From assembly GCA_902795135.1 (NCBI GenBank), contig CADBJW010000016.1, positions 18,281 through 59,011 on the forward strand: a DNA stretch of 40,731 nucleotides, written 5' to 3'. Within the stretch, counting starts at the first letter, position 1; each line of letters begins with the position of its first letter. Under the pieces are notes generated by a model that was not told where the DNA came from, ran no database searches, and saw only the letters and a list, made by a program, of their open reading frames with translations. The stretch is from an uncultured Eubacteriales bacterium (GTDB lineage Bacteria; Bacillota; Clostridia; Peptostreptococcales; Anaerovoracaceae). Position numbers and translations under genes: made by a program. Below are positions 13,250 through 40,688 of this stretch, piece by piece.

Positions 13250-13267
13250 GTGAAAGGAACCTTTCAC
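13250..13267 (+). other. Palindrome at the transporter transcription start
   Basis: GTGAAAGG-AA-CCTTTCAC is a perfect inverted repeat lying at the predicted first transcribed bases. It is either an operator for a repressor or a 5' mRNA hairpin. Confidence 0.5.
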
Positions 13268-13282
13268 AATTGTAAATATTTG

Positions 13283-13347: not shown

Positions 13348-13443
13348 ATCATTTGAGAATACCGATCGTTTCCTTTTGTTTTGGGCTTCTTGAATCGATA
13401 GTGTGGAACGAAGAGTGTGGTTTTGTTACAGTAGTTTATTGGC

Positions 13444-25517: not shown

Positions 25518-26726
25518 TTATAGTCCAATCAGTGTCCCGGCAAAGATGCCGTAGTAATTGCCGAGCACGTACCCCAGGGTTCCGACTAGGATAGAAGGAA
25601 CGATGAGTGTGTTCCAACCCTTGGCAATGGCCATGGCAGCGGCAGTCGTCGGACCGCCGATGTTGGCATTGGATGAAATGATGATTTCCTCCAGGCTAAA
25701 CCGGAACAGCTTGCCAAAGACAAAGGAAAACAGCATGTTCACGAATACGATGATGGCACAGAACAGGAGCAGGAGCGGTGCTTTTGTAACGATCATGTAG
25801 ATCGATGCAGGCACCCCGATTACGGCGAAGAAAATGTGAATCAGATAAGTTCCGATTTCCTGTGCGCCCGGAATGTTTCCGACCTGTCTCGGGAAGAGGG
25901 TTGCCACCAGCATGGTCAGTGTTGTAATGATCAGGTACTGGTTGCCAAGCAGTCCGTTGATCAGGGAAAGTCCGAAATTGGTTGTCGGAATCACTTCGCC
26001 CAAAACCCCTGAAATCTTCACGGAAATTGCAACGATGACAAGGGATAAAGCGATGCAGATCGCGATGTCCTTGAGAGAAATCTGCTTTGGTTCCCAGAAG
26101 GTAGCAGCGCCGCCGATTTCCCCATCTGCAGTCTTGTGCTGATGCTCATCAATCAAAGGATGCTTGTAGTTCTTCAGGAAAAACTTCGAACCTGCTGCGG
26201 CAATCAGCGCGAAGAAATAAAGCGCCATGAGCAGATTGTCGGCGACAACAGAGGAAGAAACCAGTTCACCGCCTACATTGTATGCGTCCGACATGGCAAC
26301 CAGATTGACGCTTCCACCTGTATAAGTACCGATCATCATTGGCAGCACTTGGCCAAGGTCTGTCAGTGCTCCCTTGAGCAGGCTGTAAGCCAGGAAGCCC
26401 CCGGCCACTGTCCCGATGCCGCTGATCAGGTAAATAATGAGAAGCCGTCCGCTTTCTTTGCCGATCCGCTTGATGTCTGCATTGAACAGGAGCATCGGAA
26501 TCGCCAGCGGAATGATGTAACTCCATACGAAATCATAGGCGGGAGCATCCAAAGGAATGATCCCGACATTGGACAAAATCATGGCGCCGATGAGAGCCAT
26601 AACGCATCCGGTGAGTTTGGAACCGATTTTTGTCTTCTGTTCTAAATATACGGCAAGAGTTGCAATCGCTGCAATGATCGCAAACAATGCCCACGTGTTA
26701 TCTGCGCTGATTAGTGAATGATTCAT
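25518..26726 (-). CDS. DUF819 family integral membrane protein
   Basis: This 402-residue protein has about ten to eleven membrane segments and matches the DUF819 (YjcL) family: GCVMALIGAMILSNVGI near 40, PMMIGTYTGGSVNLVAMSDA near 130, NANIGGPTTAAAMAIAKGW near 355. The repeated inverted halves with Gly-rich turns suggest a secondary transporter, but no substrate is established. Its ATG lies one base after the hemB stop, so it is the last gene of the tetrapyrrole operon and may move an intermediate or precursor. No clear terminator was found between it and the converging acyltransferase gene (25414-25517). Confidence 0.87.
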   Translation of the reverse strand: MNHSLISADNTWALFAIIAAIATLAVYLEQKTKIGSKLTGCVMALIGAMILSNVGIIPLDAPAYDFVWSYIIPLAIPMLLFNADIKRIGKESGRLLIIYLISGIGTVAGGFLAYSLLKGALTDLGQVLPMMIGTYTGGSVNLVAMSDAYNVGGELVSSSVVADNLLMALYFFALIAAAGSKFFLKNYKHPLIDEHQHKTADGEIGGAATFWEPKQISLKDIAICIALSLVIVAISVKISGVLGEVIPTTNFGLSLINGLLGNQYLIITTLTMLVATLFPRQVGNIPGAQEIGTYLIHIFFAVIGVPASIYMIVTKAPLLLLFCAIIVFVNMLFSFVFGKLFRFSLEEIIISSNANIGGPTTAAAMAIAKGWNTLIVPSILVGTLGYVLGNYYGIFAGTLIGL

Positions 26727-26727
26727 A

Positions 26728-27711
26728 TTAGCCTATTTTCCCTTCATCAATCATTTTAGCCAATTCTTTTGCAAAATACGTAATATACATGCCTGCGCCA
26801 CTGCGGTATGCTCCGACAGCCATTTCGCCGATAATCCGTTCTTCATCGATCCAGCCATTCAGTGCGGCAGCCTTAACCATGGAATATTCACCGCTTACGC
26901 TGTAAGTGGCAACCGGGATGTTGGTCGCGCTGACCACCCGTTCCAGAAGATCATAGAAGGCCATAGCTGGTTTTACGATCAGGAAATCCGTACCTTCCTC
27001 TACGTCCAGAAGTGCTTCTTTCATAGCCTCTCTGCCGTTGTGATAGTCCATCTGATAACTCTTTCGGTCACCAAAATGCGGCGCAGAGTCCGCAGCATCA
27101 CGGAACGGTCCATAAAAGGCTGAAGCGAACTTGACGGCATAGGACATAATCGGAATGTTCTTAAAGCCATCTGCATCCAGCTTCTCACGAATCGCCATAA
27201 CGTGGCCATCCATCATATCAGAAGGAGCCACGATATCTGCACCTGCTTCCGCCTGGGAGCTTGCGATTTCTGCCAGCATCTTCAGCGTATCGTCGTTGTC
27301 AACGTATTCGCCGTGCAGGATTCCGCAGTGTCCGTGGGACGTATATTCACACATGCAGACGTCTGCGATAAACAGCATATCCGGGAAGTGCTTTTTACCC
27401 TCTCTTAAAGCTCTCTGAACGATTCCGTCATGGGCATAGGCCTGACTTCCCACTTCGTCCTTGTGCTCTGGAATCCCGAACAGCAGGATGTTATTCACGC
27501 CCAGCTTTGCGGCTTCTTCCAGTGCGTAAGGGAACTGGTCCACACTGTAGCGGTACTGTCCCGGCATGGAAGGGATCTCATCCTTGATTCCCGTTCCGTC
27601 GATGGTAAAAATCGGGTAAATCAGGGAGGATTTATCCACGCGGGTCTCCCGAACCATTTTTCTCATTGCTTCTGTTGTACGTAATCTTCTTGGTCTTCTC
27701 GTTAAATCCAT
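26728..27711 (-). CDS. hemB: Porphobilinogen synthase (delta-aminolevulinate dehydratase)
   Basis: HemB condenses two 5-aminolevulinate molecules to porphobilinogen. The zinc-site cysteines CMCEYTSHGHC and the two active-site lysines (in YAVKFASAFYGPFRD and LIVKPAMAFYD) are all present, so it is a zinc-dependent form. From the ATG at 27711 the protein is 327 residues, the normal length, beginning MDLTRRPRRLR; AAAGGA lies ten bases upstream. In-frame ATGs at 27735 and 27747 would add a short tail and are less likely. It lies between cobA-hemD and the DUF819 gene. Confidence 0.96.
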   Translation of the reverse strand: MDLTRRPRRLRTTEAMRKMVRETRVDKSSLIYPIFTIDGTGIKDEIPSMPGQYRYSVDQFPYALEEAAKLGVNNILLFGIPEHKDEVGSQAYAHDGIVQRALREGKKHFPDMLFIADVCMCEYTSHGHCGILHGEYVDNDDTLKMLAEIASSQAEAGADIVAPSDMMDGHVMAIREKLDADGFKNIPIMSYAVKFASAFYGPFRDAADSAPHFGDRKSYQMDYHNGREAMKEALLDVEEGTDFLIVKPAMAFYDLLERVVSATNIPVATYSVSGEYSMVKAAALNGWIDEERIIGEMAVGAYRSGAGMYITYFAKELAKMIDEGKIG

Positions 27712-27736
27712 TGTACTATATTCCTTTCCACTCATA

Positions 27737-29224
27737 TTATTTCCCAAGTTCTAACGCTTTTGACAGCATGCTGTCGATGGTTGCCTGATCAGAAATCGTA
27801 ACATGAAAGCCATAGGATGATGCAGCTTCAGCTGTTCGGTTGCCAATGCAAAGAGCAGGCATTCCATCAAAGTCTGTTCTATCTTGTGAACGAACGAAGC
27901 CATCCACACAGCTTCTGCTCGTAAACGTAACGAAGTCGATTTCACCAACCTGATCCACTGGCGGGTTGGCGATCAAATGGGTCTCATAGACCGGATAATC
28001 GGTATATGGAATCTGTGCATCCCCAAGGACATCGGTCACATCGTGGGAGGCCAGTGTCGTCCGAAGCAAAAGCACCCGGCTGTTTTGATCCACAAATCCA
28101 TTGTCTACCATTTCCCGGCCCAGTGCCAGTCCGCTGTATTCGGACGGGATAAAGTCACACGCGAGACCGTATTCCTTCAGAGCGTTTGCCGTGGCAATGC
28201 CGATGCAGGCGATTTTTTGCCCCGCTAGGGTCCGCATGTCTGAGCCGTTTTCCAAAAGCCAGCTGCAGTAAGAGCGCACGCCTTCTGCACTGGTAAATAC
28301 GAGAGTATCAAAGGCATCGCCCGTGACCGGTTCTTTGGTTGGCACGTCCAGAGGCCGAATCGGTTCTGTTTTGATGCTTGGATACAGCAGGACGTCGGCA
28401 CCCAGTTCTCGAAGTCCCCCGGCAAGCCGGGAGCTTCTGGCAACCGGCTGTGTCACTAAAACGCGCTTTCCGAGCAAAGGCTTTTGGTGAAACCAGCCGA
28501 ACTGTTCGGATAGACTGCATACTTTGCCGACCATGATGACAGCAGGGGAGGTGACGTGGTTTTCACGTACCGTTTTGGACAAATCGCTGATTGGCGATGT
28601 AAACGTCCTCTGCTGCGGCAGGGTTCCTTTTTCAATGACCGCCGAAGGTGTCTGAGGGTCCATACCGGCTTCCATAAGTCCCGTCGCAATCTGCTCAACA
28701 GTGGAAACGCTCATCATGAACACCAGCGTTCCGTGCAGCCGGACCAGTGCATCAAAGTCAATGGAAAGCTTGGCCCCGGCTTTTGCATGTCCTGTAATAA
28801 TGTGCAGGGAGGAACAGAAGTCGCGATGAGTCACCGGAATTCCGCCATATGCCGGAACAGCGATGGAGGAGGTGATTCCGGGAACCACTTCGAAGTCGAT
28901 GCCGCTTTGCTGCAGTAACTCCAATTCTTCTCCGCCGCGGCCAAAGAGAAACGGATCGCCGCCTTTTAGCCGGACGACCATCTTTCCAGCCTCTGCCTGT
29001 TCCAGAAGGATCTGATTGATTTCTCCCTGCGGAACCGGGTGACGACCGGCGTTCTTGCCGACGTCAATGGTCTCCGTACCTTCCGGTATCATGGCCATGA
29101 TTTCGGGACCGACCAATCTGTCATAGACGATCACGTCTGCCTTCTCGATTAATGTCTTACCTTTTAATGTCAGCAGACCACCATCTCCGGGGCCTGCACC
29201 CACGAGAAATACTTTTCCCTTCAT
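27737..29224 (-). CDS. cobA-hemD: Fused uroporphyrinogen-III methyltransferase / uroporphyrinogen-III synthase
   Basis: This 495-residue bifunctional enzyme has an N-terminal CobA (SUMT) domain, about 1-245, with VGAGPGD, VIVYDRLV, VRLKGGDPFLFGRGGEE and GIPVTHRD. It methylates uroporphyrinogen III twice with S-adenosylmethionine to precorrin-2. A C-terminal HemD domain (about 250-495; VLVTQP, LVFTSAEGV, DFVTFTSRSCVDGF) closes the macrocycle to uroporphyrinogen III. The fusion is common in Firmicutes. Start and stop abut hemC and overlap the hemB leader, so the genes are co-transcribed. Its product feeds the precorrin-2 dehydrogenase and CbiK of the same operon. Confidence 0.96.
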   Translation of the reverse strand: MKGKVFLVGAGPGDGGLLTLKGKTLIEKADVIVYDRLVGPEIMAMIPEGTETIDVGKNAGRHPVPQGEINQILLEQAEAGKMVVRLKGGDPFLFGRGGEELELLQQSGIDFEVVPGITSSIAVPAYGGIPVTHRDFCSSLHIITGHAKAGAKLSIDFDALVRLHGTLVFMMSVSTVEQIATGLMEAGMDPQTPSAVIEKGTLPQQRTFTSPISDLSKTVRENHVTSPAVIMVGKVCSLSEQFGWFHQKPLLGKRVLVTQPVARSSRLAGGLRELGADVLLYPSIKTEPIRPLDVPTKEPVTGDAFDTLVFTSAEGVRSYCSWLLENGSDMRTLAGQKIACIGIATANALKEYGLACDFIPSEYSGLALGREMVDNGFVDQNSRVLLLRTTLASHDVTDVLGDAQIPYTDYPVYETHLIANPPVDQVGEIDFVTFTSRSCVDGFVRSQDRTDFDGMPALCIGNRTAEAASSYGFHVTISDQATIDSMLSKALELGK

Positions 29225-30106
29225 TTATTCTTTCCCTTTCATTTGCAATGCCAGTTTATGTCCCAGAGCAATGCATTCTTCATTGGTGACGGCAACATCC
29301 TCCATGTGCATGACAAAAGGCTTCCCGTCTTTATCAATATCAAGACCTGTCAGTTTGATGCGATCACCGCTGATGACCGCATAGGCCGCCATCGGTGATG
29401 TGCACCCACCATCCAGGGTTCTTATAAAGCTTCGCTCGCAAAGGCTGGTTCGCCAGGCGTCCCGGTTGTCAAAATCAGCGAGGAAGGAAATGTCCTGGTC
29501 GCGTCTGCCCTGAACTGCCAGCACGCCTTGCCCCACAGCAGGAATCATCTCATCCGGCTCAAAGATCCGGCTGATTCGGTGCTCCAGTCCTGCTCGCTTG
29601 AGTCCAGCAACGGCCAGCATGGTAGCGGCGAAATGACCGCTGTCCAGCTTTTTAAGCCTGGTCTGTACGTTGCCTCGCATCGGTTCGAAGGTCGCTTCTG
29701 GATAAAGCTTCTGAAATTGGAGAATTCTTCGGTTTGAAGAACAGCCAATGGGTTTACTTAGATCCAGTTCCGTAACGCCTTCCGGTAGAATCAACGCGTC
29801 TCTCGGGTCTTCCCGCTCGGAGCAGGCCAGGATCGGGATTTCGTCCAACACATCCGTCGTCATATCTTTGACGCAGTGAACCACCAGGTCCACGCGGCCG
29901 TCTTCCAGGGCGAGTTCCAGTTCTTTGATAAAGAGTCCCTTACCGCCGATTTTATCCAGATTGCGGTCCAGGATCTTATCGCCCTTTGTTTTCATGGTGA
30001 CCAGTTCCAGCTCGATGGACGCATCGTATTTGTGGATTGCGTCCATCAGCATTTCTGACTGGATGACTGCCAGAACACTTTCTCTGCTTCCAACTCGGAT
30101 TTTCAT
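29225..30106 (-). CDS. hemC: Porphobilinogen deaminase (hydroxymethylbilane synthase)
   Basis: This 293-residue HemC polymerises four porphobilinogens. The cofactor-attaching cysteine is in LDGGCTSPMAAYA (~240). The catalytic Asp is in VHCVKDMTT, which differs from the more usual VHSLKDVPT. Substrate-binding arginines are in GSSNRRILQ and MRGNVQTRL. At about 293 residues it is slightly short of the ~310 typical of the family. The start follows a GAAAGG site. The stop abuts the cobA-hemD start. Confidence 0.96.
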   Translation of the reverse strand: MKIRVGSRESVLAVIQSEMLMDAIHKYDASIELELVTMKTKGDKILDRNLDKIGGKGLFIKELELALEDGRVDLVVHCVKDMTTDVLDEIPILACSEREDPRDALILPEGVTELDLSKPIGCSSNRRILQFQKLYPEATFEPMRGNVQTRLKKLDSGHFAATMLAVAGLKRAGLEHRISRIFEPDEMIPAVGQGVLAVQGRRDQDISFLADFDNRDAWRTSLCERSFIRTLDGGCTSPMAAYAVISGDRIKLTGLDIDKDGKPFVMHMEDVAVTNEECIALGHKLALQMKGKE

Positions 30107-30107
30107 T

Positions 30108-30596
30108 TTAGTATTGCCTTTCTTCTATGATCTGACGCAGTCTCGCGGCTGCATTTCTTACAGTTTCATGGGATTTGCCATTGCCGACGAGGCCCATGAC
30201 CAATTCATCGTTTGTTGCGATGGCAGGGAACCAAAAGGTGGACTCTTTCTGGTCATCGCACAGATTCACTTGGATTCCATGGCTTTTGCAAAGAGCTCCG
30301 ATCTGTCCGTTAACGTCGGAATCATCGGTGCAGGCAAGCACCATCAGGGCATCCTCGACCAAATGGAGGAACGGCTCCGGCTTTTGTGGATCGAACACAT
30401 CCGGCACGTGACAAATTCGTCCTGCATCCCGCAGCTTTTGGATGTCGTCCGTGATCTGCGTGGACAGGACCGTGATTTCGAAATCAAACTTCGCCAGGGT
30501 CTGTATCCGTCGCTGGGCAATTTTGCCGCCGCCAACGACGATGACTTTGCTGCCGGCCGTTTTTATAAATATAGGAAAATGTTCGTGCATTTCCAT
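30108..30596 (-). CDS. Precorrin-2 dehydrogenase (siroheme synthase N-terminal domain type)
   Basis: This 162-residue protein has the NAD-binding motif VIVVGGGKIAQRRI near the N-terminus and the Met8p/CysG-N pattern VLACTDDSDVNGQIGALCKSHGIQVNLCDD. It oxidises precorrin-2 to sirohydrochlorin with NAD+. At this length it lacks the C-terminal extension of full CysG or Met8p, so any ferrochelatase action is doubtful; CbiK encoded nearby would insert cobalt instead. AAGGAG lies eight bases before the ATG. It is followed by hemC after one base. Confidence 0.9.
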   Translation of the reverse strand: MEMHEHFPIFIKTAGSKVIVVGGGKIAQRRIQTLAKFDFEITVLSTQITDDIQKLRDAGRICHVPDVFDPQKPEPFLHLVEDALMVLACTDDSDVNGQIGALCKSHGIQVNLCDDQKESTFWFPAIATNDELVMGLVGNGKSHETVRNAAARLRQIIEERQY

Positions 30597-30626: not shown

Positions 30627-31718
30627 CTATTGCTTTCTTCTACGTTTGATCACGATGTTCAGGATCCCTCCCAAAACGATGATGATGAGGGAAACGATCA
30701 GTACTTTGATGGCCGCTTCCTGAGGAATCTGACTCTTCGTTCCCACGGTGTCGCTGTAGAACGTAAGCTCATACTCGATTTCCACAGGGTCGCCCATTGC
30801 CGTCGTATCTGCAATGACCGGGAAGCTCTCGTCCAGTACAGGAATCGGAATGGTGAACGTGGAGTTGCCGCCGTCGGTCGTTTCGTTGGTGTATTTTTTG
30901 CCTCCAACGATCATGTAGTCATAATAGGTGCTGCTCCACATGAGCCGGGCATAGGCTTTGCCGTCTTTGACGATCAACCAGGTCGGTGAGGTAACGCTGG
31001 CACGTCCGCTCCCGCCGGTCATCTGCACCTGGATGGAATATTCGCCATCTTTTTTATCAATGGCCGCAGGATCGTGTCCGATCGCAGCAATCTTTTGCAA
31101 TGTTGCGGTTGCTTCCGTAGAATCCTTGTTTGTGGATCCATCGTAAGCCTCCATGGCCTTTTCGATTTTGTCATAGTCGGGCAGCGTGATCTTCAGCCCG
31201 GTATCCGGCAGAGACGATGCATCAAAGAGGATCGTTCTCGGATACCATTGTTTCTTTTTCTTACTGAAAGCCGCGCAGTCCAGTTCTTTGTTCAAGGCCG
31301 ACAAGCGAAATTCAAAGGTGCTTTCCCCCTCATGATCCTTCGGAGCGATATACTGCTCGAGGGGTGCAGCGGCAGCTTCTTCCGGTGTCCCCAGGTAAAT
31401 GTACTCATAGCTAGTGGAGGACAGCGTCATACGAACGGTCATCTTGCCGCCCTTTACCGCCAACTTCGCCTTGGTAATCCGGAAGAATGAGGAACTGCTT
31501 TCTGCCTCAACGTCATAGTTTCCGTCGTTGATATCGCGCCCGTAAATTGGCGTCATACCATATTTGATTACCGTTTTCGACGAAGAAACATCGGAGGACG
31601 GAGCGACAGCGTCGTATCCCTCGGCGCCCCAAACGCAGGCCGGGTATGAAAGTCCGAACAGCATGATCAGACAAATTGTAACGATTGTTTTCTTAGTCAT
31701 ATGGTTTGATTGGATCAT
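30627..31718 (-). CDS. Membrane-anchored protein with two NEAT-like domains
   Basis: This ~363-residue protein has an N-terminal signal peptide (cleavage near VWGAEG) and a C-terminal membrane helix followed by KRRRKQ, so it is held on the outer face of the membrane. Two beta-rich domains resemble heme-binding NEAT domains. The first (about 60-175) contains GGKMTVRMTLSSTSYEYIYLG. The second (about 225-330) contains KDGKAYARLMWSSTYYDYMIVGGKKY-like strands and a closing DPVEIEYELTF strand. The second domain is clearly shared with the lipoprotein at 34914-35705. Between them is an acidic helical linker. The start is chosen for the ATGA overlap with the cbiK stop; ATG at 31700 is an alternative. 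The NEAT assignment rests on pattern only. Confidence 0.65.
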   Translation of the reverse strand: MIQSNHMTKKTIVTICLIMLFGLSYPACVWGAEGYDAVAPSSDVSSSKTVIKYGMTPIYGRDINDGNYDVEAESSSSFFRITKAKLAVKGGKMTVRMTLSSTSYEYIYLGTPEEAAAAPLEQYIAPKDHEGESTFEFRLSALNKELDCAAFSKKKKQWYPRTILFDASSLPDTGLKITLPDYDKIEKAMEAYDGSTNKDSTEATATLQKIAAIGHDPAAIDKKDGEYSIQVQMTGGSGRASVTSPTWLIVKDGKAYARLMWSSTYYDYMIVGGKKYTNETTDGGNSTFTIPIPVLDESFPVIADTTAMGDPVEIEYELTFYSDTVGTKSQIPQEAAIKVLIVSLIIIVLGGILNIVIKRRRKQ

Positions 31719-32524
31719 TTTGCCGCAGTGGCGTGATCGATGAATAATTGCTGTACCGCCTTGTATTCGCCAAGTCCCTTGATGATTGGCACTGCCGAAA
31801 TGCCGATGCCTTTGATCTGATTGACCCATGAGTCTTCGTCGTCGCCGGCCATATCGTTTAGTGCGTGGTTTCCGGCAACGATCATCAGCGGCGTCACAAA
31901 GGCTTTTGTAATGGATCCGTGCTTTTGCAACGCAGCCAGAACGTCTTCCAAGGTTGGCGAGCCGTCAACGGTGCCGACAAAAACACGATGGTAGCCCTGA
32001 TCAGCCAGCCGCTTTTGGAGCATGTGGTAAACCTCGTTGGAAGCCGGATCGTGCCGATTGCCGTGTCCCATTAAGACGAGGGCAGATGCATCATCGCAGC
32101 AGCATTCCGAATAGATATCTTCTAGGACGATTCTGGAAACCGCATCGATATCCGATTCAGAGTCCAGGAGATTCGCACCAATGCGGATCGAGTCGAAAGG
32201 GTCTGCCAATTCTGCCAAAACCTGCCTCATCTTTTCGTTTTCGAATCCGTCCAAAAGGTGGGTGGGCTGCACCAAAACCTCTTTGATTCCGTCTGCAGCC
32301 ATGCGCTGCAGCGCTTCTTCTAATGTATCGCAGTGAATCCCATGGGACTCACGAAGTTTCTTAATGATAAACCGGCTTGTCCATGCGCGGTACAGCGCGT
32401 GGTCCGGGAACGCCTCTGCCAAAGCTCCTTCAATGGCACCGATGGTCTTATCACAGGTTTCCTTGTGCAAAGTCCCGAAGCTCACAGCGAGGAGGCCTTT
32501 GGTGGTTTTGTTTTGATTGCTCAT
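31715..32524 (-). CDS. cbiK: Sirohydrochlorin cobaltochelatase, cytoplasmic CbiK
   Basis: This 269-residue class II chelatase inserts Co2+ into sirohydrochlorin in the anaerobic B12 route. It starts with GLLAVSFGTLHKET, has the metal/catalytic histidines in LVLMGHGNRHDP (~145) and VAGNHALNDMAGD (~210), and QPTHLLDGFENEKM in between. There is no signal peptide, in contrast to the related lipoprotein at 35733-36950. AGGAGG lies about 11 bases before the ATG. It stands between an ABC exporter pair and a NEAT-like protein gene. Confidence 0.93.
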   Translation of the reverse strand: MSNQNKTTKGLLAVSFGTLHKETCDKTIGAIEGALAEAFPDHALYRAWTSRFIIKKLRESHGIHCDTLEEALQRMAADGIKEVLVQPTHLLDGFENEKMRQVLAELADPFDSIRIGANLLDSESDIDAVSRIVLEDIYSECCCDDASALVLMGHGNRHDPASNEVYHMLQKRLADQGYHRVFVGTVDGSPTLEDVLAALQKHGSITKAFVTPLMIVAGNHALNDMAGDDEDSWVNQIKGIGISAVPIIKGLGEYKAVQQLFIDHATAAK

Positions 32525-32539: not shown

Positions 32540-33271
32540 CTACAGATTCTTTTTCTTATAGATGAACAGTACAGAAATCAGGGAAAACGCCGCCAGATAT
32601 GCGAACAATATGAGGTAGCCAAACCCGCTGTAATATTCACCCGCTGAGATGCTTCGAATCATGCCGCTTGTTTGTGACAAAGGCAACGCGGCGATAAACT
32701 GCCGGATCCCTGCTGGCATGGATTCTGTGGAGAAGAATGTGTTGCAGAGAAATGACATCGGCGTAATGATATATGCTGTAAAACGCGGAGCGTCGGTATA
32801 GCTCTTTGCAAGGAAAGAGAGCACGAGAGCCAGTGTGGAGAACACAGCCCCGTTCAGAAACATGATAAAGAAGGATGCTCCGTTGAATATGAGCCCGGTC
32901 CGGACCGGGAAGGTGATGAGCAGGATCATGCATCCCGCATACATGCCCCGTAGAGATCCGCCAATGACCTGCCCCAGAATAAACTGCCACAGGGGAGTCG
33001 GGGAGACCATGACCTGGTCCAGAGCCTTTTCGTAAAGCCTTTGCACGCTCATATTCTGCGCGACCGCACCAAAACTGCCGGTCATCGTCGACAAGGCAAC
33101 GATTCCCGGAATCAGGAAGTTCAGGTATGGCTCACCGTGAGACGTTGTCTGTATTCCGAGCCCGAAAACGATCAGATACATGAGCGGCGTGATAACGGCA
33201 GCCAGCGTTATTTTATAGAAGTCTCTGCGAAACTCTCTCCATTTTTCCCATAATACAGCAAGTACACCCAT
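32540..33271 (-). CDS. ABC-2 type exporter permease
   Basis: This 243-residue membrane protein has six membrane segments and matches the ABC-2 (NodJ/DrrB-like) family: FLIPGIVALSTMTGSFGAVAQNM near 45-70, VSPTPLWQFILGQVIGG near 90, ITPMSFLCNTFFS near 170. It forms an exporter with the ATPase encoded one base upstream. Embedded among cbiK, cbiL and NEAT-like genes, it may export a tetrapyrrole, a metal complex or a lipid, but nothing in the sequence identifies the substrate. Confidence 0.88.
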   Translation of the reverse strand: MGVLAVLWEKWREFRRDFYKITLAAVITPLMYLIVFGLGIQTTSHGEPYLNFLIPGIVALSTMTGSFGAVAQNMSVQRLYEKALDQVMVSPTPLWQFILGQVIGGSLRGMYAGCMILLITFPVRTGLIFNGASFFIMFLNGAVFSTLALVLSFLAKSYTDAPRFTAYIITPMSFLCNTFFSTESMPAGIRQFIAALPLSQTSGMIRSISAGEYYSGFGYLILFAYLAAFSLISVLFIYKKKNL

Positions 33272-33272
33272 A

Positions 33273-34115
33273 TTATTTCTGGTCTATTCTCCTTCCGATC
33301 CGTTCCACAAAAACGTCTTCCAGGGTCGTGTTGCGCATGGTCATATCTTCGTCAGATCCGGACAGATAATCGATGGCATCCCGCTTCGTAGCGAAATACT
33401 TTGATACGAGACGTTCCTCTGTGGTAATGTCTACCGCAAAGGCACCCAGGTGGTCAATGAGCGTCTGCGGTGCGTCTACCGTATCGAGCTTGCCATGGTC
33501 GATGAGTGCCACCCGGTCGCAAAGAGACTGGGCCTCATCGATGTAGTGGGTCGTTAAAAGAATGGTTATATTTCTGCTATGGAGCTGCCGAAGCAGGTTC
33601 CACATTTGTCTTCGGGAAATCGCGTCCATTCCAGCTGTCGGTTCGTCCAGAAGCAAAATCTCCGGATCGGTCATCAGTGCCCGGCAGATCATGAGCTTTC
33701 GTTTCATACCGCCTGACAAGTGCCGCACCACACGATGGCGGTAGTCGATCAGCCCGGTAAATGCGAGGAGCTCATCGCTCTTTTCCCGGATTTCCTTTTT
33801 TTTCATATAGTAAAGACGCCCCTGATATTCCATGACTTCGTCCATGGTCATGTCCTGTCGCATGGAATATTCCTGGGTTATAACGCTGAATTTGCGTTTT
33901 TCCGCAGAGGCCTTACGATCCAGTTTGTTGCCATCGATGAGAATTTCCCCGGAAGTAGGGAGAAGAACGGTGGAAAGCATACTGATCGTAGTTGTTTTTC
34001 CGGCGCCGTTTGGTCCGAGAAGACCAAAGAATTCTCCGGTCTTGATGGTCAGATCCAAATGGTCGACGGCCGTAAAATCACCATATTTTTTTGTCAGTTG
34101 TTTGATTTCAATCAT
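33273..34115 (-). CDS. ABC-2 exporter ATP-binding protein
   Basis: This 280-residue ATPase has Walker A GPNGAGKTT, Q-loop ITQEYSMR, signature HLSGGMKRKLMICRAL, Walker B ILLLDEPTAGMD and H-loop TTHYIDEA, typical of drug- and lipid-export ATPases (CcmA/DrrA-like). It has a short C-terminal accessory domain with FAVDITTEERLVSKY. It pairs with the permease one base downstream. No good ribosome site precedes its ATG, and it starts 21 bases after the cbiL stop. Confidence 0.92.
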   Translation of the reverse strand: MIEIKQLTKKYGDFTAVDHLDLTIKTGEFFGLLGPNGAGKTTTISMLSTVLLPTSGEILIDGNKLDRKASAEKRKFSVITQEYSMRQDMTMDEVMEYQGRLYYMKKKEIREKSDELLAFTGLIDYRHRVVRHLSGGMKRKLMICRALMTDPEILLLDEPTAGMDAISRRQMWNLLRQLHSRNITILLTTHYIDEAQSLCDRVALIDHGKLDTVDAPQTLIDHLGAFAVDITTEERLVSKYFATKRDAIDYLSGSDEDMTMRNTTLEDVFVERIGRRIDQK

Positions 34116-34136: not shown

Positions 34137-34817
34137 TCAATCTTTGGCGATGATCAGAGCGAAGTAGCCTGCATCATCTGGGATTTCATCGACGCTTCGA
34201 TAAACCTGTTCGCTATCCATGCCGCAATCCTGCACCATGTTCACGTCTTTACCGCTTGCCCGGAGCAGATCTTTCACGTCTTTCATATGGCTTCCGGATT
34301 TCATGAGAACATAGCTTCCGGAATCGTCGAGGGCTGCTCCCAGCTTATGAACCGCTGGAATTACGTGCATTGGTTCATTCCATTCCACGATTGGAATATT
34401 GAGGCGTGCGGCTGCTGCGCAGAAGGAAGGGATTCCGCTGACAAGAGCCGTTTCATAGCCGTCTTCCTCTATGATCTTCTGCAGATAGGAAAAAGTGCAG
34501 TATATAGTCGGATCGCCCAAAGTCAAGTAAACGACATTCTTTCCTTTCTCCAGATATTCCTCCATGAGTTTGGCGCCCTTTTGGTGGTTTTCTCTTTGCA
34601 CATTCAGATCCATGGTCATCGGCATATATACAGGAATGAGGGTTTTGTCTGCCAGTTCAGGGACTGCCTGGACAGCTATTTTGTAAGCAACAGTTTCTTT
34701 TGGTTCTTTACCGGGAAGTGCGATGACGTCATTTTCCTTGATCAGCTTGACAGCTTTCAGTGTCATATATTCCGGGTCTCCCGGGCCTACGCCTACTCCG
34801 TATGCAATTCCTTTCAT
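34137..34817 (-). CDS. cbiL: Cobalt-factor II / precorrin-2 C20-methyltransferase
   Basis: This 226-residue SAM-dependent methyltransferase of the CobI/CbiL family adds the C20 methyl group to cobalt-sirohydrochlorin, giving cobalt-factor III. Landmarks are GVGVGPGDPEYMTLKAV at the N-terminus, VVYLTLGDPTIYCTF near 95, VSGIPSFCAAAA near 125 and LMKSGSHMKDV near 170. AGGATCC precedes the ATG by a few bases. It follows an internal terminator and precedes the exporter genes. With CbiK in the same operon it marks the anaerobic (early cobalt) pathway. Confidence 0.94.
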   Translation of the reverse strand: MKGIAYGVGVGPGDPEYMTLKAVKLIKENDVIALPGKEPKETVAYKIAVQAVPELADKTLIPVYMPMTMDLNVQRENHQKGAKLMEEYLEKGKNVVYLTLGDPTIYCTFSYLQKIIEEDGYETALVSGIPSFCAAAARLNIPIVEWNEPMHVIPAVHKLGAALDDSGSYVLMKSGSHMKDVKDLLRASGKDVNMVQDCGMDSEQVYRSVDEIPDDAGYFALIIAKD

Positions 34818-34913: not shown

Positions 34914-35705
34914 TTACTCTTCAACCAGGGTAAGTGTCAACTGGTATTCGATTTCGTGAGGTTCACTCATCGCTGTCGTGTCCCCAATGACCTTGTAAGG
35001 CTCTTTGAGTTTCAGAACAGGGATCTCGAATACGGAGTTGCCATCTTCATTGATTGGTTCGTACTTTTCTCCATTAACGATCATATAGTCATAATAAGGG
35101 CTGGACCATTCCAGTTTGACAGTAGCCGCACCATCCTTGATGGTCATTTCAGCAGGACTGCTGACCGTAGCCTTTCCAGTACCGCCTTCGAGGGCCGTTT
35201 CTACCTGATAGGTTCCATCTTCCAAATCGATGGCTGTCTGCGCATGAATGTCATCTCCGGGAACCGGATTTGATACGATGACTTTGTGGTCGTACCAGTT
35301 GCCGTGTCGGCCGATCAACGCCACATCGAATTCCTCATCGAGAGCAGGAACCGGGATATCAAATCCATAGACTTCGTCCACATAGCCGTCGCCATAATCG
35401 ATTTTATCTGTGGTCGGTTCGATCAGTTCCGCGCCTTCCTTTTGGGCATCTTCTGCAGTACCGGCATAAAGATTTACGATTTTCTTGGACTGAAGGCTTA
35501 CGTGAACGGTCATTTCACCGTCTTTCACGGTCAGGATGCCTTTGTCGTTATTCGCATCGTTCACGTGGAACATCGGATGATCCGTCGTGAAGTCCACGAC
35601 ATAGGTCCCGTCTTCCAGACCGGAGTCCTGTGAGCCGCAGCCCACCAGACTGAATCCGAGAATCAAAACGATGCCGCATATGATCATTAATATTTTTCTT
35701 TTCAT
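34914..35705 (-). CDS. Lipoprotein with two NEAT-like domains, next to the surface chelatase
   Basis: This 263-residue lipoprotein has lipobox LVGC (Cys ~25) and almost nothing but two beta-rich domains. Domain 1 (about 32-150) contains MFHVNDANNDKGILTV, KDGEMTVHVSL, FDIPVPALDEEF and WYDHKVIV. Domain 2 (about 160-262) contains KDGAATVKLEWSSPYYDYMI, VFEIPVLKLKEPYKV and HEIEYQLTL. The order of strands (KDG-x-x-TV, then F-x-I/V-P, then YDH or HEIxY near the end) recalls NEAT heme-binding domains. Domain 2 is closely like that of the membrane-anchored protein at 30627-31718. The ATG at 35705 has AAGGTG six bases upstream; GTG at 35714 is less likely. The ligand is unproven: heme, a corrinoid, sirohydrochlorin or a metal are possible. 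Confidence 0.7.
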   Translation of the reverse strand: MKRKILMIICGIVLILGFSLVGCGSQDSGLEDGTYVVDFTTDHPMFHVNDANNDKGILTVKDGEMTVHVSLQSKKIVNLYAGTAEDAQKEGAELIEPTTDKIDYGDGYVDEVYGFDIPVPALDEEFDVALIGRHGNWYDHKVIVSNPVPGDDIHAQTAIDLEDGTYQVETALEGGTGKATVSSPAEMTIKDGAATVKLEWSSPYYDYMIVNGEKYEPINEDGNSVFEIPVLKLKEPYKVIGDTTAMSEPHEIEYQLTLTLVEE

Positions 35706-35732
35706 GTAATGCACCTTATTTATTGATTCGTC

Positions 35733-36950
35733 TTATTTGATTACAGCGCCAGTGTGCTCAACGTAGATCTTCTGGATGTCAGCAATTCTTCCCATGCCTT
35801 CAACCTGAGCTGTTACATTGTCTTCACCGAATCCTTCGCCGATGTCTACCGGTTCGTCAGCGCCTTCAACCTCAAATTCGCCGCCGTTCTTGAATGCATC
35901 GCCCCAGTCGCCAGCCATGTCGTTATTTGCATGGTCGCCTGCAACAACCATCATTGGACGGAGGATAATCTTGCTGTATCCAGCAGCTTCTACTGCCTTC
36001 TTGACTTCCGGAAGAGCTGTGTCAGGAGGGTTTCCTTCTACAGTACCTACGAATACGTTCTTGTATCCCAGCTGTTCCATCTGAGTCTGCATCTGGTCAT
36101 AAGTAACATTGGCTTCGTGGCCAGTACCGTGTCCCATGAATACGATTGCAGTACCATCTGCTGCCAGAGCATCCAGTGAGTCTGCGCCAGCTACTTTAAC
36201 TGCTTCCGCTACAACAGCCTTTGCAACAGCTTCCTTATCAGGGTTTACTGCGGAGGCGTCTTCGCCAACTTCACCGAGGAGCGGTTCTGCGATTTCAACG
36301 GATTCAAACTGATCTTTAACAGCATCAACGGCTTCGTTCAGTTCGTCATATTCTGCACCGTGCATCAGGTGTGTCGGCTGGATTACCAGGTTCTTAACTT
36401 CGTTTGCAATTGCTCTGTCCAGAGCCTGCTGCATGTTGTCGATCTTTTCGCCGTCACGAGCCTGTACGTGGTTGATGATGATCTGGGCAGTGAAAGCTCT
36501 GCGAACAGACCAGTCAGGATACGCTTCTGCCAGAGCCTTTTCAACGCCGCCGATGTCAGTTGCTCTGCTGTCGTTGAAGGATGTACCAAAGCTTACAACC
36601 AGCAGTTCGTTTTCGCCGATTTCATCCTGATTGAGTGGATCATCCTTGGATGCGTCGCCAGTGTCCAGTCCGAAGTAATCCGGATCTTCCAGCTGTTCTT
36701 TCTGCTCGTCAGTCAGAGCATCGTAAGCAGCTTTTGCAGCTTCACACTGTGCATCTGTGTCTTCTGTTCTTTCCTGAACCTGGATGGCTTCGATAGCCTC
36801 GTTACAAGCTGCTACCGGATCTGCAGCGGCAGCCTGTTCTTCGGTGCCTTCTTCACTGCTGGAGCCACCGCATCCTGTTGCCATCAGCATCATTCCCATA
36901 GCGAGAACAAATGCCATGGCTACGACAATGAATTTTCTAAGATTCTTCAT
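35733..36950 (-). CDS. Surface lipoprotein form of CbiK-type chelatase
   Basis: This 405-residue protein has a signal peptide with lipobox ATGC (Cys27), an acidic linker, a short helical region (AAKAAYDALTDEQKEQL, common in Gram-positive surface proteins) and then a full CbiK domain from about residue 115. That domain has LLVVSFGTSFNDSRA, RRAFTAQIIINHV, QPTHLMHGAEYDEL, and the conserved histidines in VFMGHGTGHEAN (~275) and VVAGDHANNDMAGD (~335). Exported CbiK relatives are known from Desulfovibrio (CbiKP, periplasmic, heme-associated). Here the enzyme would sit outside the membrane of a Gram-positive cell. AAGGAGG precedes the ATG. It is the first gene after the cobalamin riboswitch. Confidence 0.9.
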   Translation of the reverse strand: MKNLRKFIVVAMAFVLAMGMMLMATGCGGSSSEEGTEEQAAAADPVAACNEAIEAIQVQERTEDTDAQCEAAKAAYDALTDEQKEQLEDPDYFGLDTGDASKDDPLNQDEIGENELLVVSFGTSFNDSRATDIGGVEKALAEAYPDWSVRRAFTAQIIINHVQARDGEKIDNMQQALDRAIANEVKNLVIQPTHLMHGAEYDELNEAVDAVKDQFESVEIAEPLLGEVGEDASAVNPDKEAVAKAVVAEAVKVAGADSLDALAADGTAIVFMGHGTGHEANVTYDQMQTQMEQLGYKNVFVGTVEGNPPDTALPEVKKAVEAAGYSKIILRPMMVVAGDHANNDMAGDWGDAFKNGGEFEVEGADEPVDIGEGFGEDNVTAQVEGMGRIADIQKIYVEHTGAVIK

Positions 36951-36990: not shown

Positions 36991-37027
36991 AAAATACAAA
37001 GGCCTTCGCTAAACGGAGCAAAGGCCT
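36991..37027 (-). terminator. Cobalamin riboswitch terminator
   Basis: On the minus strand AGGCCTTTGCT pairs with AGCGAAGGCCT (one G-U pair) around CCGTTT and is followed by TTGTATTTT. It lies between the aptamer and the surface chelatase gene, as expected for transcription-terminating B12 control. Confidence 0.85.
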
Positions 37028-37124
37028 CATGAAGAATCGTTTATATTTCTATCAATCAGTATTTACACCCGCCAGTTACTCGTGGCCAACCATACACCGA
37101 TTCTTCGGCGAAATAGTATGTGTC

Positions 37125-37312
37125 CCAAAAGGCAGGTCTCCTGACTTATGGATCTGACGCCTCGGCCGCCTTCCCGATTGCTCAGTGGCGAAATGGCTTT
37201 GGCTACCCACTTACAGTGACGAGTTCGCGCAGGATTTTCACCTGTTTCCCTATTATCTGCATAGGCACATTACGACTGTGCGTCATGCAGCACCTCTTGG
37301 TATTTGTATTCC
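37125..37312 (-). ncRNA. Cobalamin riboswitch
   Basis: On the minus strand the conserved elements occur in order: AGGTGC near the 5' end, AATAGGGAA, CAGGTGAAAATCCTG, CTCGTCACTGTAAG, a GGGAAGG-type region and the B12 box AGTCAGGAGACCTGCC (37131-37146). It binds a cobalamin and, with the terminator at 36991-37027, should turn off the lipoprotein chelatase/NEAT/cbi/hem operon when B12 is plentiful. Between aptamer and terminator a perfect 9-bp pair, GAAGAATCG with CGATTCTTC (37098-37106 and 37031-37039), forms part of the switching region. Confidence 0.93.
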
Positions 37313-37377: not shown

Positions 37378-38514
37378 TTAGGCTTTTTCAAGGGTTCCAA
37401 GTCCTTCCGCCAATTGGATGAGTTCAGCGACTTTGGCATTGGTCTGGCCGATTGGAAAATCCGTCAGAATCACGCGTTCACAGGATTCAATCCACTTCTT
37501 CGCTTTTGCAAAAGCTTCGTCATCGATGGCCTCGAAAGGCTCAGTGGTGACGACTTCAGCGGCGAGGAGTCTGGCAAGCTGATAGTCCAGATCATTGGTC
37601 GGCAGGATCCCGGTTACGAACGGTGTGTTTTCCTTTTGCAGCTTCCGGTAGATTGGAATGCCTTTGCCGCAGGAGGAGAGCACGAATACCTTCGGGTCGG
37701 GAGCATTTGTTTCCGAATCTGTGAGCACGCCGGTTGGTGCCGGGAGCTCGGTGCTCCCAAATAGTGGGTCGAAGTATCCGTTGTCGATGCCATAAAGCTC
37801 GCGGATCGTGTCTTCGTCAAAGATCTCTTCCGGCTTACCATAGCGGTAGATCCGGTCGCCTTTAACGCAAATGATCCGATCGGACACTTTCTGGGCCAGG
37901 TCGATCTCGTGCAGGGACATGATGACGGTGATGCCTTTTTTCTTGGCCATGTTGCGAAGGATCGACAACAGCTCCAGTTTGTAGCGAATGTCGAGGAAGG
38001 AGGTCGGTTCGTCAAGGATAATGACTTCCGGATCCTGACAGATGGCCCGGGCCAGCAAGATCCGCTGCCTTTGTCCATCACTGATCGCGTTAAAATCCCG
38101 CGGCCCCAGTTCTGAGGCGTGGACCGCTGCGATGGCTTCATCCACCTTTCTTTCATCTTCTTCGGAAAGGATTCCCAGTTTTCCGGTATATGGATAACGC
38201 CCGCTCGCAACGATGTCGTAGCAGGTGAGTAGATCCGTTTTCATGCGTTCTGTGAGAACGACCGCCATCTTTTTAGAAAGATCGCGAAACGGAATTTTGT
38301 GAAGGTCCTGTTCGTTAAAAATCACTTTTCCCTGGATGAGGGAGAGCTGCCGAGTAATGCTTTTGAGTATGGTGGACTTTCCCGCGCCGTTGGGACCGAT
38401 CAGGGAAATGATGTCACCTTTTTCAATGTCCACGCAGATGTCGCGGATGATGGCTTTGCCGTTGTAGCCTACCGACAGATCGTCCAGGCGGATGTAGGAA
38501 TTTGTATTGGTCAT
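37378..38514 (-). CDS. Fec/Btu-type ABC importer ATPase with extra C-terminal domain
   Basis: This 378-residue ATPase has a normal FepC/BtuD-type domain in its first ~255 residues: Walker A GPNGAGKST, signature ISDGQRQRILLARAI, Walker B VIILDEPTSFLD and H-loop SLHEIDL. A further ~120 residues contain KVFVLSSCGKGIPIYRKL, a hydrophobic alpha/beta pattern and VILTDFPIGQTNAKV. Such extended ATPases are known among corrinoid and siderophore importers, mainly in anaerobes and archaea; the extension may sense the ligand. It abuts the permease gene, with AGGAGG inside the permease end as its ribosome site. Confidence 0.9.
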   Translation of the reverse strand: MTNTNSYIRLDDLSVGYNGKAIIRDICVDIEKGDIISLIGPNGAGKSTILKSITRQLSLIQGKVIFNEQDLHKIPFRDLSKKMAVVLTERMKTDLLTCYDIVASGRYPYTGKLGILSEEDERKVDEAIAAVHASELGPRDFNAISDGQRQRILLARAICQDPEVIILDEPTSFLDIRYKLELLSILRNMAKKKGITVIMSLHEIDLAQKVSDRIICVKGDRIYRYGKPEEIFDEDTIRELYGIDNGYFDPLFGSTELPAPTGVLTDSETNAPDPKVFVLSSCGKGIPIYRKLQKENTPFVTGILPTNDLDYQLARLLAAEVVTTEPFEAIDDEAFAKAKKWIESCERVILTDFPIGQTNAKVAELIQLAEGLGTLEKA

Positions 38515-39606
38515 TTATCTCATCCTCCTTCGGTTGATCATCATGTAAATAACAACGGGAGCGCCAAAGACCGCGGTAACCGTGCTGATGTTCAGCTCAA
38601 TCGGGGCGAAGGCCAGGCGGGCGATTAAATCGCATACCATACAGAACACGCCGCCGCCGAGCATGCAGCCGGGGATAATGACCAGCGGTTTGGAAGTGCC
38701 CATGATTCCCTTGACCAGGAACGGCACGGCGATTCCCACGAAGGAAATCGGTCCTGCAAAAGCCGTGACACAGGCGGACAGCAAACTGGACAGCAATATG
38801 AGAGCCGCCCGGAACAGCTTGATGTTGACACCCAGACTTTGGGCGTACACTTCACCCATCTGGTAAGCGCCGATCGGTTTGGAGAGGATCATGGTCAGGA
38901 TGAATCCGACACCGACTACGACCAGACAGATCGCCACGTTGGTCCATGTCATTCCGGAGAAACTCCCCTGTGACCATCCATGAAGATTGGCGATGTCCGA
39001 ATCCTCCGCAAAGGTAATCATAAATTCCGTAACCGCATTGCAAATGTATCCCACCATGATTCCGGCAACGAGCAGGGCAGCCATGTTGCGGATCCGCTGG
39101 GAAACTGCGAGTATGAACAGAGTTGCCAGAAGGGATCCCACAAAAGCAGCCGCGATGACCGTGAAGGACGATACGTGCTTGGCGTTTTGCAGGAAAAAGA
39201 TCAATACAAAGGCAACGACCATTTTGGCGCCGGATGAAATACCGAGTACATAAGGACCGGCGATCGGGTTCTCAAAGAAGGTCTGCAGCAGGAACCCAGC
39301 CATAGCGAGGGCACCGCCCAGAATCAGGGAGACAATAATACGTGGCATACGGATGGTCCACACGATGTCCATGACGTTATCGGTCCCCTGACGCAGGAAT
39401 ATGGCCCGGGCGATTTCGCCCATGCCGATGTGTACGTTACCAGAGTTGATGTTGACGACAACCATAACGGCAAAGGCAGCGAGCATGCCGGCAAACACCA
39501 GCAGGACACGGGTGCGCCGCTTGGCATTCAAGGCATGATAATCTTCCAGAACCTGATCCCGTGCCTTTGCGTTGGCTTCTTTTGTTTGTGCGTTGTAATC
39601 AGTCAT
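38515..39606 (-). CDS. FecCD/BtuC-type ABC importer permease
   Basis: This 363-residue permease has about nine to ten membrane segments of the FecCD family: RMPRIIVSLILGGALAMAGF near 100, GPYVLGISSGAKMVV near 135, GWSQGSFSGMTW near 225, and the ATPase-coupling region AQSLGVNIKLFRAALILLSS near 280. FVGIAVPFLVKGIMG follows near 310. The N-terminus has an unusual ~30-residue charged cytosolic extension. It would carry an iron-siderophore, heme or corrinoid with the neighbouring lipoprotein and ATPase. It starts five bases after the lipoprotein stop. Confidence 0.92.
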   Translation of the reverse strand: MTDYNAQTKEANAKARDQVLEDYHALNAKRRTRVLLVFAGMLAAFAVMVVVNINSGNVHIGMGEIARAIFLRQGTDNVMDIVWTIRMPRIIVSLILGGALAMAGFLLQTFFENPIAGPYVLGISSGAKMVVAFVLIFFLQNAKHVSSFTVIAAAFVGSLLATLFILAVSQRIRNMAALLVAGIMVGYICNAVTEFMITFAEDSDIANLHGWSQGSFSGMTWTNVAICLVVVGVGFILTMILSKPIGAYQMGEVYAQSLGVNIKLFRAALILLSSLLSACVTAFAGPISFVGIAVPFLVKGIMGTSKPLVIIPGCMLGGGVFCMVCDLIARLAFAPIELNISTVTAVFGAPVVIYMMINRRRMR

Positions 39607-39611: not shown

Positions 39612-40688
39612 TTAGTTGAGTTTTGTGATGTATTTTAAGTCGGAAGGGTTATCTTCCGTAATCAGCTTGTGGAAATCGAGGATCATCTCAGCGACGATAT
39701 CCGTTCGCTGGTACATGGAGCTGCCGGTGATCCAGCAGTTTCCTGTTTGGACCGCTTTCATTTTTTTCATGATCGGATCTTTGGCGATAAGGTCAGCCAT
39801 GGACTTTACCGAACCGTCGATGCTGGAGTTGTAAACGATGATATCCGCATTTTTTGCCGTATCATAGAACGTCTCGACGGACATGTCAGCCGTTGATTTG
39901 TCGCTGTCACTGTCCAGATCCTTAAAGGCGTAAACGCCGCCGGCAATATCGATCATTTTCGGAACATAGTCGGTGCTGCTGCGCACAACGACTTTGCCCT
40001 CCGTATTGAAATAGAAGAAGGCAACCGTTGTTCCCGTATTTTCGAAATCGTCCAGTTTCTTGATGGAGTCAAGCTGCTTGTCAAAAAATTCAGTAGCCTC
40101 TTTTTCATGTCCGGTCAGAACGCCGTAAAGCTTGATCCATTCCGCCCGGCCCATAGGATCGGACTCGTAGCTGGAACGGTCGACCAAAACCGGAATGTCG
40201 ATTTCTTCGATCATTTCCTGAACTTCAGGTGTGTGATCGATCATGGTAGATTCAATCGCCAGATCACAGGCTTCTTTTGGTTCGTCAAAGGTCCAGTCTT
40301 CTTCTTTGATGGAGGACATGCGGACGTTGTCCAAGGCTCCCATGGAACAAAACATCGCCATAGTCGCGGTTGCTGCCAAATAAATTCGCTTGGCCGGTTT
40401 GTGAAGGACGGTGATATCTTCCGGCAATGAGTCCGGAACTTCAGCGCCTTCCGGAACGAGCAGGAAACTCTGGTGATCCTTGATGATGATCAGGGAGTAA
40501 CCGCCTTTGTATTGGTATACGCTGAACTGGTCCGCTCGCTTCAGCTCCATGGTGGATTCATAGGTCAATCCCTTCAGTTCCGGTGGTTCGGTTGCGCTGG
40601 CGGTAGAACTGGCCGATCCGCCGCCGCAGCCAGAAAGCAGCATGGTTGCCGCTACGATGATGGTGATCAGAATGGTTGTGATTCTCAT
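39612..40688 (-). CDS. Substrate-binding lipoprotein of the Fec/Btu-type importer
   Basis: This 358-residue lipoprotein has lipobox LSGC (Cys ~21) and a helical-backbone (class III) binding fold of the FecB/BtuF/TroA type: KRIYLAATATMAMFCSMGALDNVR near 105, IPVLVDRSSYESDPMGRAEWIKLYGVL near 170, and a C-terminal AVQTGNCWITGSSMYQRTDIV. It would capture an iron complex, heme or corrinoid outside the membrane. GAGGGA lies about nine bases before the ATG. It is the first gene of the importer operon in the window. Confidence 0.88.
   Translation of the reverse strand: MRITTILITIIVAATMLLSGCGGGSASSTASATEPPELKGLTYESTMELKRADQFSVYQYKGGYSLIIIKDHQSFLLVPEGAEVPDSLPEDITVLHKPAKRIYLAATATMAMFCSMGALDNVRMSSIKEEDWTFDEPKEACDLAIESTMIDHTPEVQEMIEEIDIPVLVDRSSYESDPMGRAEWIKLYGVLTGHEKEATEFFDKQLDSIKKLDDFENTGTTVAFFYFNTEGKVVVRSSTDYVPKMIDIAGGVYAFKDLDSDSDKSTADMSVETFYDTAKNADIIVYNSSIDGSVKSMADLIAKDPIMKKMKAVQTGNCWITGSSMYQRTDIVAEMILDFHKLITEDNPSDLKYITKLN

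Follow-up and report, generated by a model that had tools for sequence, protein, structure and literature searches.

The window, by which we mean the whole 40,731-nucleotide stretch of DNA analysed here, encodes a CbiK-type chelatase that bears a lipoprotein signal and is accompanied by a cobalamin riboswitch, NEAT-like proteins and a BtuFCD-like importer. Across the family of the window's organism, this exported CbiK and the TIGR00123-type importer CbiM were never found in the same genome. We hypothesize that the exported CbiK module serves cobalt acquisition, a role that gene content and control make likely.

A B12-controlled gene cluster

The cluster occupies the minus strand and is listed here in the order in which that strand is read.

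39612..40688, minus strand: BtuF-like substrate-binding lipoprotein (PF01497)
38515..39606, minus strand: BtuC/FecCD-type permease (family scan)
37378..38514, minus strand: BtuD-like ATPase (family scan)
37347-37319, minus strand: promoter-like site (pattern match only)
37114..37312, minus strand: cobalamin riboswitch aptamer, upstream of exported CbiK (RF00174, 106 bits)
36999..37028, minus strand: terminator-like hairpin in the gap between riboswitch and CbiK (pattern match; frequency no higher than in shuffles)
35733..36950, minus strand: exported CbiK open reading frame, 405 aa, ATG start, AAGGAGG ahead of the start
34914..35714, minus strand: NEAT1, lipoprotein with two NEAT-like domains (below Pfam cut-off; predicted fold)
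34901-34870, minus strand: terminator-like hairpin after NEAT1 and before CbiL (pattern match; frequency no higher than in shuffles)
34137..34817, minus strand: CbiL, C20-methyltransferase (TIGR01467, above cut-off)
33273..34115, minus strand: ABC-2 exporter ATPase, DrrA-like (family scan)
32540..33271, minus strand: ABC-2 exporter permease (family scan)
31715..32524, minus strand: cytoplasmic CbiK, no signal peptide (PF06180, 3.1e-72)
30627..31829, minus strand: NEAT2, C-terminal membrane anchor (PF05031, 7.6e-9, passes Pfam cut-off)
30108..30596, minus strand: SirC-like precorrin-2 dehydrogenase (reading of sequence and position)
29225..30106, minus strand: HemC (reading of sequence and position)
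27737..29224, minus strand: CobA-HemD fusion (TP_methylase part by family search; remainder by reading the sequence)
26728..27747, minus strand: HemB (reading of sequence)
25518-26726, minus strand: GltS-like sodium/glutamate symporter, at the end of the tetrapyrrole gene run (reading of sequence)

The original prediction had assigned B12 control to this cluster, and the RF00174 riboswitch upstream of exported CbiK bears this out. The hairpin at 36999..37028 is probably the riboswitch expression platform, and the one at 34901-34870 may set exported CbiK and NEAT1 apart as a separate unit under riboswitch control. A separate cytoplasmic CbiK had been placed in the same operon; the second gene is indeed present (31715-32524), whereas its membership of one operon is uncertain given the intervening hairpin at 34901-34870. 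At 21/21 further loci, an Rfam scan located a cobalamin riboswitch ahead of exported CbiK, or ahead of the importer-CbiK operon, in the same orientation; these loci are a hand-picked set made up of 14 of the 19 loci first chosen (L050, L062, L091, L121 and L126 were left out) and seven others. At L115 and L107, the divergent arm that carries CbiL and the ABC-2 genes has a separate cobalamin riboswitch. Only three cobalamin riboswitches occur in the 2.08 Mb of the window genome, and for this reason the pairing of riboswitch and CbiK is not attributed to chance. Elsewhere in the window, a purine riboswitch at 13264-13363 on the plus strand is barely over threshold (38.5 bits against a cut-off of 37).

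The NEAT-like neighbours named in the original prediction are recognized by different means: NEAT2 lies above the Pfam cut-off, and NEAT1 falls below it by sequence and is NEAT-like by predicted fold, its two NEAT-like domains matching the heme-binding NEAT domains of IsdH, IsdB and IsdX. The true start of NEAT2 is probably an internal ATG. Five tetrapyrrole methylases were found in the window genome, of which only the CbiL of the cluster is of the CbiL type, and contig 29 of that genome holds cbiD, F, G, H, J, ET, A and B (cbiC was outside the search), with cbiD and the methylases identified by family search and the others by reading the sequence. Searching the window genome (G000, 91% complete) for CbiM returned zero PF01891 matches at E 0.001, and the TonB-dependent receptor IhtA was not among the ten cluster genes scanned. 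The GltS-like gene closes the run; the C5 pathway builds the tetrapyrrole ring from glutamate. GltS-like genes also adjoin exported CbiK in L098, L102 and L104.

Export signal, fold and active site

Exported CbiK consists of a lipoprotein signal peptide with Cys27, a conserved helical linker at residues ~45-112 and a CbiK domain at residues 116-404. Its N-terminus reads MKNLRKFIVVAMAFVLAMGMMLMATGC, and the lipobox-type cysteine at position 27 is aligned in 50/53 exported proteins, in agreement with the lipobox signal peptide that had been predicted. Throughout this work, "exported" denotes an N-terminal export signal by a custom pattern rule, joined in some sets by a position rule, and not a SignalP call; the same rule flagged internal starts 3' of the CbiK domain, and those were disregarded. 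From this pattern we infer that the protein would be a lipoprotein on the cell surface. A misread start is ruled out by the ribosome-binding site and by the retention of the signal in relatives. The predicted structure (mean pLDDT 88) places helices at residues 45-56 and 65-78 ahead of the chelatase domain, within the helical linker noted in the original prediction. A linker cysteine, C69, is invariant in 53/53 aligned exported CbiK.

That the lipoprotein contains a complete CbiK domain is confirmed by a full-length match of residues 116-404 to Pfam CbiK (PF06180; E = 1.4e-60, 205.3 bits versus a cut-off of 26.2). The closest solved structures by sequence are CbiK 1qgo (3.5e-28), FetB 9b86 (1.1e-27) and CbiKP 2xvx (6.2e-23). 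The comparison of a predicted structure with CbiK and CbiKP that accompanied the original prediction as a proposed check was carried out, and the fold search returned CbiK 1qgo first (TM 0.88 by target length, E 1.2e-16), followed by CbiKP 2xvz and FetB 9b86. Alignment equates F121, E200, H274 and H340 of exported CbiK with Salmonella F10, E89, H145 and H207, so that both histidines expected of the family are in place, and all four equivalents are identical in 53/53 exported proteins, namely the window protein and 52 of the 56 listed exported CbiK references (L175, L180, L185 and L197 were omitted). Both CbiK proteins of the window miss the 400-bit cut-off of the NCBIfam sirohydrochlorin cobaltochelatase model NF047852, with 153.9 bits for exported and 204 bits for cytoplasmic CbiK. 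The exported protein is read as a class II, CbiK-family chelatase that would be anchored on the membrane's outer side.

Relatives and their neighbourhoods

Exported CbiK is not rare, with at least 579 relatives confirmed in a scan of genome contigs. The best 80 of these at least 579 relatives are the best matches to the exported query, and the fractions given for them describe that set and not all CbiK. Among these best 80, the N-terminal signal is present in 78/80, the other two being cut at contig ends, and the lipobox in 73/80, with BtuF or BtuC in 61/80 loci and cbi genes in 28/80. Record titles assign the best 80 mostly to Lachnospiraceae, Clostridiales and other Firmicutes, many of them animal-gut, with one Spirochaetaceae (L194), and the module is seen there in named Faecalibacterium, Gemmiger, Blautia, Dorea and Pseudobutyrivibrio records.

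A survey for lipoprotein CbiK adjoining NEAT genes, as the original prediction had suggested, found NEAT fused to CbiK, or encoded no more than two genes further on, in 77/80 of the best of at least 579 relatives and in 53/57 loci of the window's family. The four misses in the family are L065, L114 and L131, each at the end of a contig, and L083, which is without NEAT; outside the family but within its order, 6/7 loci have no NEAT within two genes. The family loci further hold a BtuC-like gene (38/57), cbi genes (37/57) and an ABC-2 permease (14/57).

Four of the loci outside the family encode lipoproteins with two tandem CbiK domains (L060:9329-11071, L066:8828-10576, L140:9550-11304 and L141:8791-10533), where they adjoin a FecCD importer and the CbiL and ABC-2 exporter genes are divergent. 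A single-CbiK version of this lipoprotein/FecCD/CbiL/ABC-2 set is found at L064, all on one strand. At the three loci scanned (L060, L064 and L067), a BtuF-type binding protein of ~490 aa is encoded alongside and has an SLH match, which in L064 is below the Pfam SLH cut-off; in L060 its gene is the next one. An exported protein of 1595 aa at L128:6483-11270 carries a fibronectin-III-like domain at its C-terminus in addition to two CbiK domains. On the L095 contig the exported-CbiK operon forms an inverted repeat whose CbiK copies are identical; this is probably an artefact of assembly.

Distribution of exported CbiK, cbiD and CbiM

How is exported CbiK distributed relative to cbiD and to a cobalt importer? 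The family set comprises 165 draft genomes of the window's family that are at least 90% complete; genome sets were compiled by hand from search results, and the importer compared is CbiM, with NiCoT, CorA and similar transporters outside the search. Within the family, cbiD is present in 88/165 genomes and exported CbiK in 57/165, a count that excludes G328 (CbiK fragment only). Exported CbiK is accompanied by cbiD in 54/57 genomes, the three without a cbiD match being G304, G322 and G333. TIGR00123-type CbiM occurs in 28/165 genomes, all with cbiD; five of these short CbiM (G291, G229, G273, G216 and G287) were checked by sequence or family scan and the rest called by length and score. Exported CbiK and TIGR00123-type CbiM were found together in 0/165 family genomes, such that the 88 cbiD genomes divide into 54 with exported CbiK, 28 with TIGR00123-type CbiM, none with both and six with neither. 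The corresponding Fisher value is ~1e-17, where the counts are genomes and not phylogenetically independent events. Four genera (g1, g4, g8 and g29) hold both exported-CbiK and CbiM genomes, which argues that the split is more than one between distant lineages.

Strict exclusivity everywhere is ruled out by a wider set, in which 6/50 exported-CbiK genomes (G362, G398, G392, G394, G369 and G384) also have a short CbiM, called by length and score. These 50 genomes were reached via the loci of the best 80 of at least 579 relatives, and their kinship to the window is unspecified. Moreover, a long CbiM-PDGLE transporter is present in 21/57 exported-CbiK family genomes, the PDGLE-fused class being assigned by Pfam in 2/21 and by full-length similarity to those two in 19/21, as also for the long CbiM of G372. 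This transporter is probably of the nickel type and might transport cobalt; for the two scanned, the best NCBIfam models are named cobalt transporter CbiM.

Exported CbiK is the sole CbiK match in 24/57 genomes, and a PF01903 search found no separate CbiX in these 24, with four CbiX-bearing controls above 100 bits. Second copies in exported-CbiK genomes were read in sequence in 33/33 cases, none with a signal; a few of them, in G178, G265, G312 and G293, have no canonical motif and are perhaps not functional as CbiK. In G042 a second CbiK is exported too. The 18 cytoplasmic-only genomes, including 10 first classed by length, have no signal in CbiK, and reading the length-classed genes in sequence left every assignment as it was. 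The ABC-2 permease of the window (E 1e-30) was found in 29/165 family genomes, every one with exported CbiK, and divides unevenly between genomes with an added cytoplasmic CbiK (27/33) and exported-only genomes (2/24). The latter count rules out the ABC-2 pair as a universal ring exporter.

Evolution and domain fusions

A tree of 102 CbiK domains, built by a quick method, contains five changes between exported and cytoplasmic; it has no outgroup root for branch directions, and it does not include proteins that the motif rule failed to catch, the window's cytoplasmic CbiK among them. Exported CbiK of the window falls in a set of 45 exported sequences with SH-aLRT 100. Signal-less CbiK of G345, G287 and G241, which are CbiM-bearing genomes, nest among the exported sequences, as if the enzyme had moved back into the cytoplasm where an ion importer exists.

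Fusions were found on both sides of this division. In a CbiM genome (G229), L052:8226-9893, near CbiM, encodes a 555-aa protein whose N-terminal part is ABC-ATPase-like and precedes a CbiK domain, so that the ATPase of the ion importer and the chelatase appear to be fused. A clear NEAT-like match lies inside the CbiK polypeptide in 19/80 of the best of at least 579 relatives (e.g. L153 and L158), a count that excludes weak NEAT matches near the signal in CbiK genes of 400-460 aa (L148: 35 bits). NEAT-like and CbiK parts also share one polypeptide at L049:8889-10535 and L062:1187-2842, which joins ring binder and chelatase directly, the NEAT-like part of L049 being a BLAST match to the window NEAT proteins with no NEAT reported by Pfam. 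Fusion of CbiK to an ABC-ATPase in a CbiM genome, and to NEAT in exported relatives, points in the same direction as the tree.

Discussion

Exported CbiK-type chelatases are already known, and CbiKP and the surface protein FetB are precedents. Salmonella CbiK (1qgo, 2xwp) is a cytoplasmic enzyme that resembles exported CbiK in fold (TM 0.88) and active-site residues; unlike it, exported CbiK has a lipoprotein signal, a linker, and NEAT and importer neighbours. The Desulfovibrio vulgaris enzyme CbiKP (2xvx, 2xvz), a heme-bound tetramer, is an exported CbiK as well, but periplasmic in a Gram-negative; the original prediction cited this precedent correctly and did not include the second, FetB/IhtB. 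CbiMNQO shares the proposed end result, cobalt for B12 synthesis, but imports the free ion, and CbiM is unmatched in the window genome. Heme uptake by Isd/NEAT systems likewise combines NEAT proteins and a FecCD-type importer in one cluster; unlike these systems, the window module has a cobalamin riboswitch and a chelatase.

The literature, as far as its accessible text extends, describes parts of such an arrangement. A review attributes to CbiK the insertion of cobalt into sirohydrochlorin, by means of H145 and H207, during anaerobic B12 synthesis (PMC7689651). In Desulfovibrio, a B12 element is stated to control cbiK-cbiL and btuCDF, with the cbiK copy unspecified; the same account reports that delta-proteobacteria with CbiK lack any known cobalt transporter, predicts CbtX, encoded in a cluster with cbiK, to be one, and in its accessible part names neither NEAT proteins nor an exporter, unlike the window cluster (PMC545781). 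FetB/IhtB of Porphyromonas gingivalis (9b86) is a CbiK-fold lipoprotein encoded with an ABC importer, as in the window. It is presented as a CbiK homologue, a lipoprotein that putatively binds heme, and proposed to take iron out of heme (PMC10913741), and is reported, via a citing review, to insert manganese into protoporphyrin (PMC13402209). Unlike the window module, FetB/IhtB is tied to heme and manganese-protoporphyrin handling and a TonB-dependent receptor, with no B12 control named in the available passages. No account of a CbiK-NEAT-Btu module in Firmicutes was found in the accessible open-licence literature.

A fundamental question is what a chelatase would do outside the cell. The B12 control, the NEAT and mostly large-ligand importer neighbours and the lack of CbiM overlap in the family make cobalt acquisition the simplest reading. 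That the chelatase would place cobalt in a sirohydrochlorin-type ring on the outer side of the membrane, with the loaded ring then imported for anaerobic B12 synthesis, is an evenly balanced proposition; the riboswitch, the presence of cbiD in 54/57 genomes, the absence of overlap with TIGR00123-type CbiM and the exported-only genomes favour such insertion over other roles. We infer the catalysis, the substrate and the cargoes of exporter and importer. At low B12, the riboswitch would permit synthesis of the exported chelatase and NEAT1. A sirohydrochlorin-type tetrapyrrole would get outside, in the window genome perhaps via the ABC-2 exporter, a candidate route whose genes share the cluster with those for CbiL, CbiK and the early tetrapyrrole steps. 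The surface chelatase would then insert Co(II) into the ring, the NEAT proteins would hold the loaded ring and hand the product to the BtuF-like lipoprotein, and the BtuCD-like permease would import ring-bound cobalt, ready for CbiL. A more tentative proposal, leaning towards doubtful, is that the cell would make the ring itself, release it metal-free, have it cobalt-loaded at the surface and re-import it via the NEAT and BtuFCD-like proteins, an obligatory B12-synthesis step then lying outside the cell; it is rated lower because the ABC-2 permease was found in only 2/24 exported-only genomes. In the window genome a cytoplasmic CbiK is also present, and external insertion is therefore not obligatory there. 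SirC/CysG-type enzymes, too, might insert cobalt.

An alternative hypothesis is that exported CbiK is a cobalt-capture protein, which would bind Co(II) outside the cell and pass it along without putting it into a ring. CbiK-type sites are described as binding free Co(II) (PMC4063343, PMC7689651), and the missing TIGR00123-type CbiM in exported-CbiK family genomes fits any role in cobalt acquisition. However, the entire active site is kept in 53/53 exported proteins, beyond the needs of a simple metal trap, the neighbours are of NEAT and large-ligand importer types, and in 24 genomes no other CbiK or CbiX was found, all of which make capture improbable. Its corollary, that the NEAT and Btu-like proteins would import cobalt complexes or corrinoids separately, appears similarly unlikely. 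Could the module instead salvage tetrapyrroles or corrinoids from gut contents or other microbes, the chelatase inserting, swapping or removing metal before import? NEAT folds bind heme in known systems, and BtuFCD is a corrinoid importer family. The surface relative FetB, with its reported insertion of manganese into protoporphyrin (PMC13402209), would suit such a role. However, cbiD in 54/57 genomes indicates B12 makers in need of a cobalt source rather than a ring, and salvage leaves the missing TIGR00123-type CbiM of exported-CbiK family genomes unexplained, so that we judge it unlikely.

Acquisition of heme iron in the manner of Isd or Iht, in which the chelatase would strip iron from NEAT-bound heme, is raised by the NEAT proteins and FetB. 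It agrees with the match of the NEAT1 model to the heme-binding NEAT domains of IsdH, IsdB and IsdX and with the proposal that IhtB/FetB takes iron from heme (PMC10913741). It is set aside as very unlikely on riboswitch and gene-context evidence, given the cobalamin riboswitch in the window and at 21/21 loci, the cbi genes in 37/57 family loci and the co-occurrence with cbiD. Of the three roles offered in the original prediction, insertion of cobalt into exported sirohydrochlorin is thus the favoured one, whereas heme stripping is disfavoured by regulation and context; a non-catalytic role in binding cobalt keeps a lower probability.

Insertion of cobalt at the surface would mean that many gut-type Firmicutes carry a cobalt chelatase for a B12 precursor on their outside, under B12 control and often without the usual cobalt importer in the genome. 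A 2009 survey listed 13 species that synthesise B12 yet have no cobalt transporter and no transporter whose function is unassigned (PMC2667541, accessible text). The exported CbiK module bears on how some B12 makers get their cobalt and offers a concrete genetic test. A reconstruction of the gut microbiome counts a cobalt transporter among the B12 pathway parts, in the portion available (PMC6593275), and B12-pathway rules that require such a transporter might overlook exported-CbiK genomes. If the proposal is true, a cofactor pathway would have an extracellular step, and a ring intermediate would double as a cobalt-gathering chelator.
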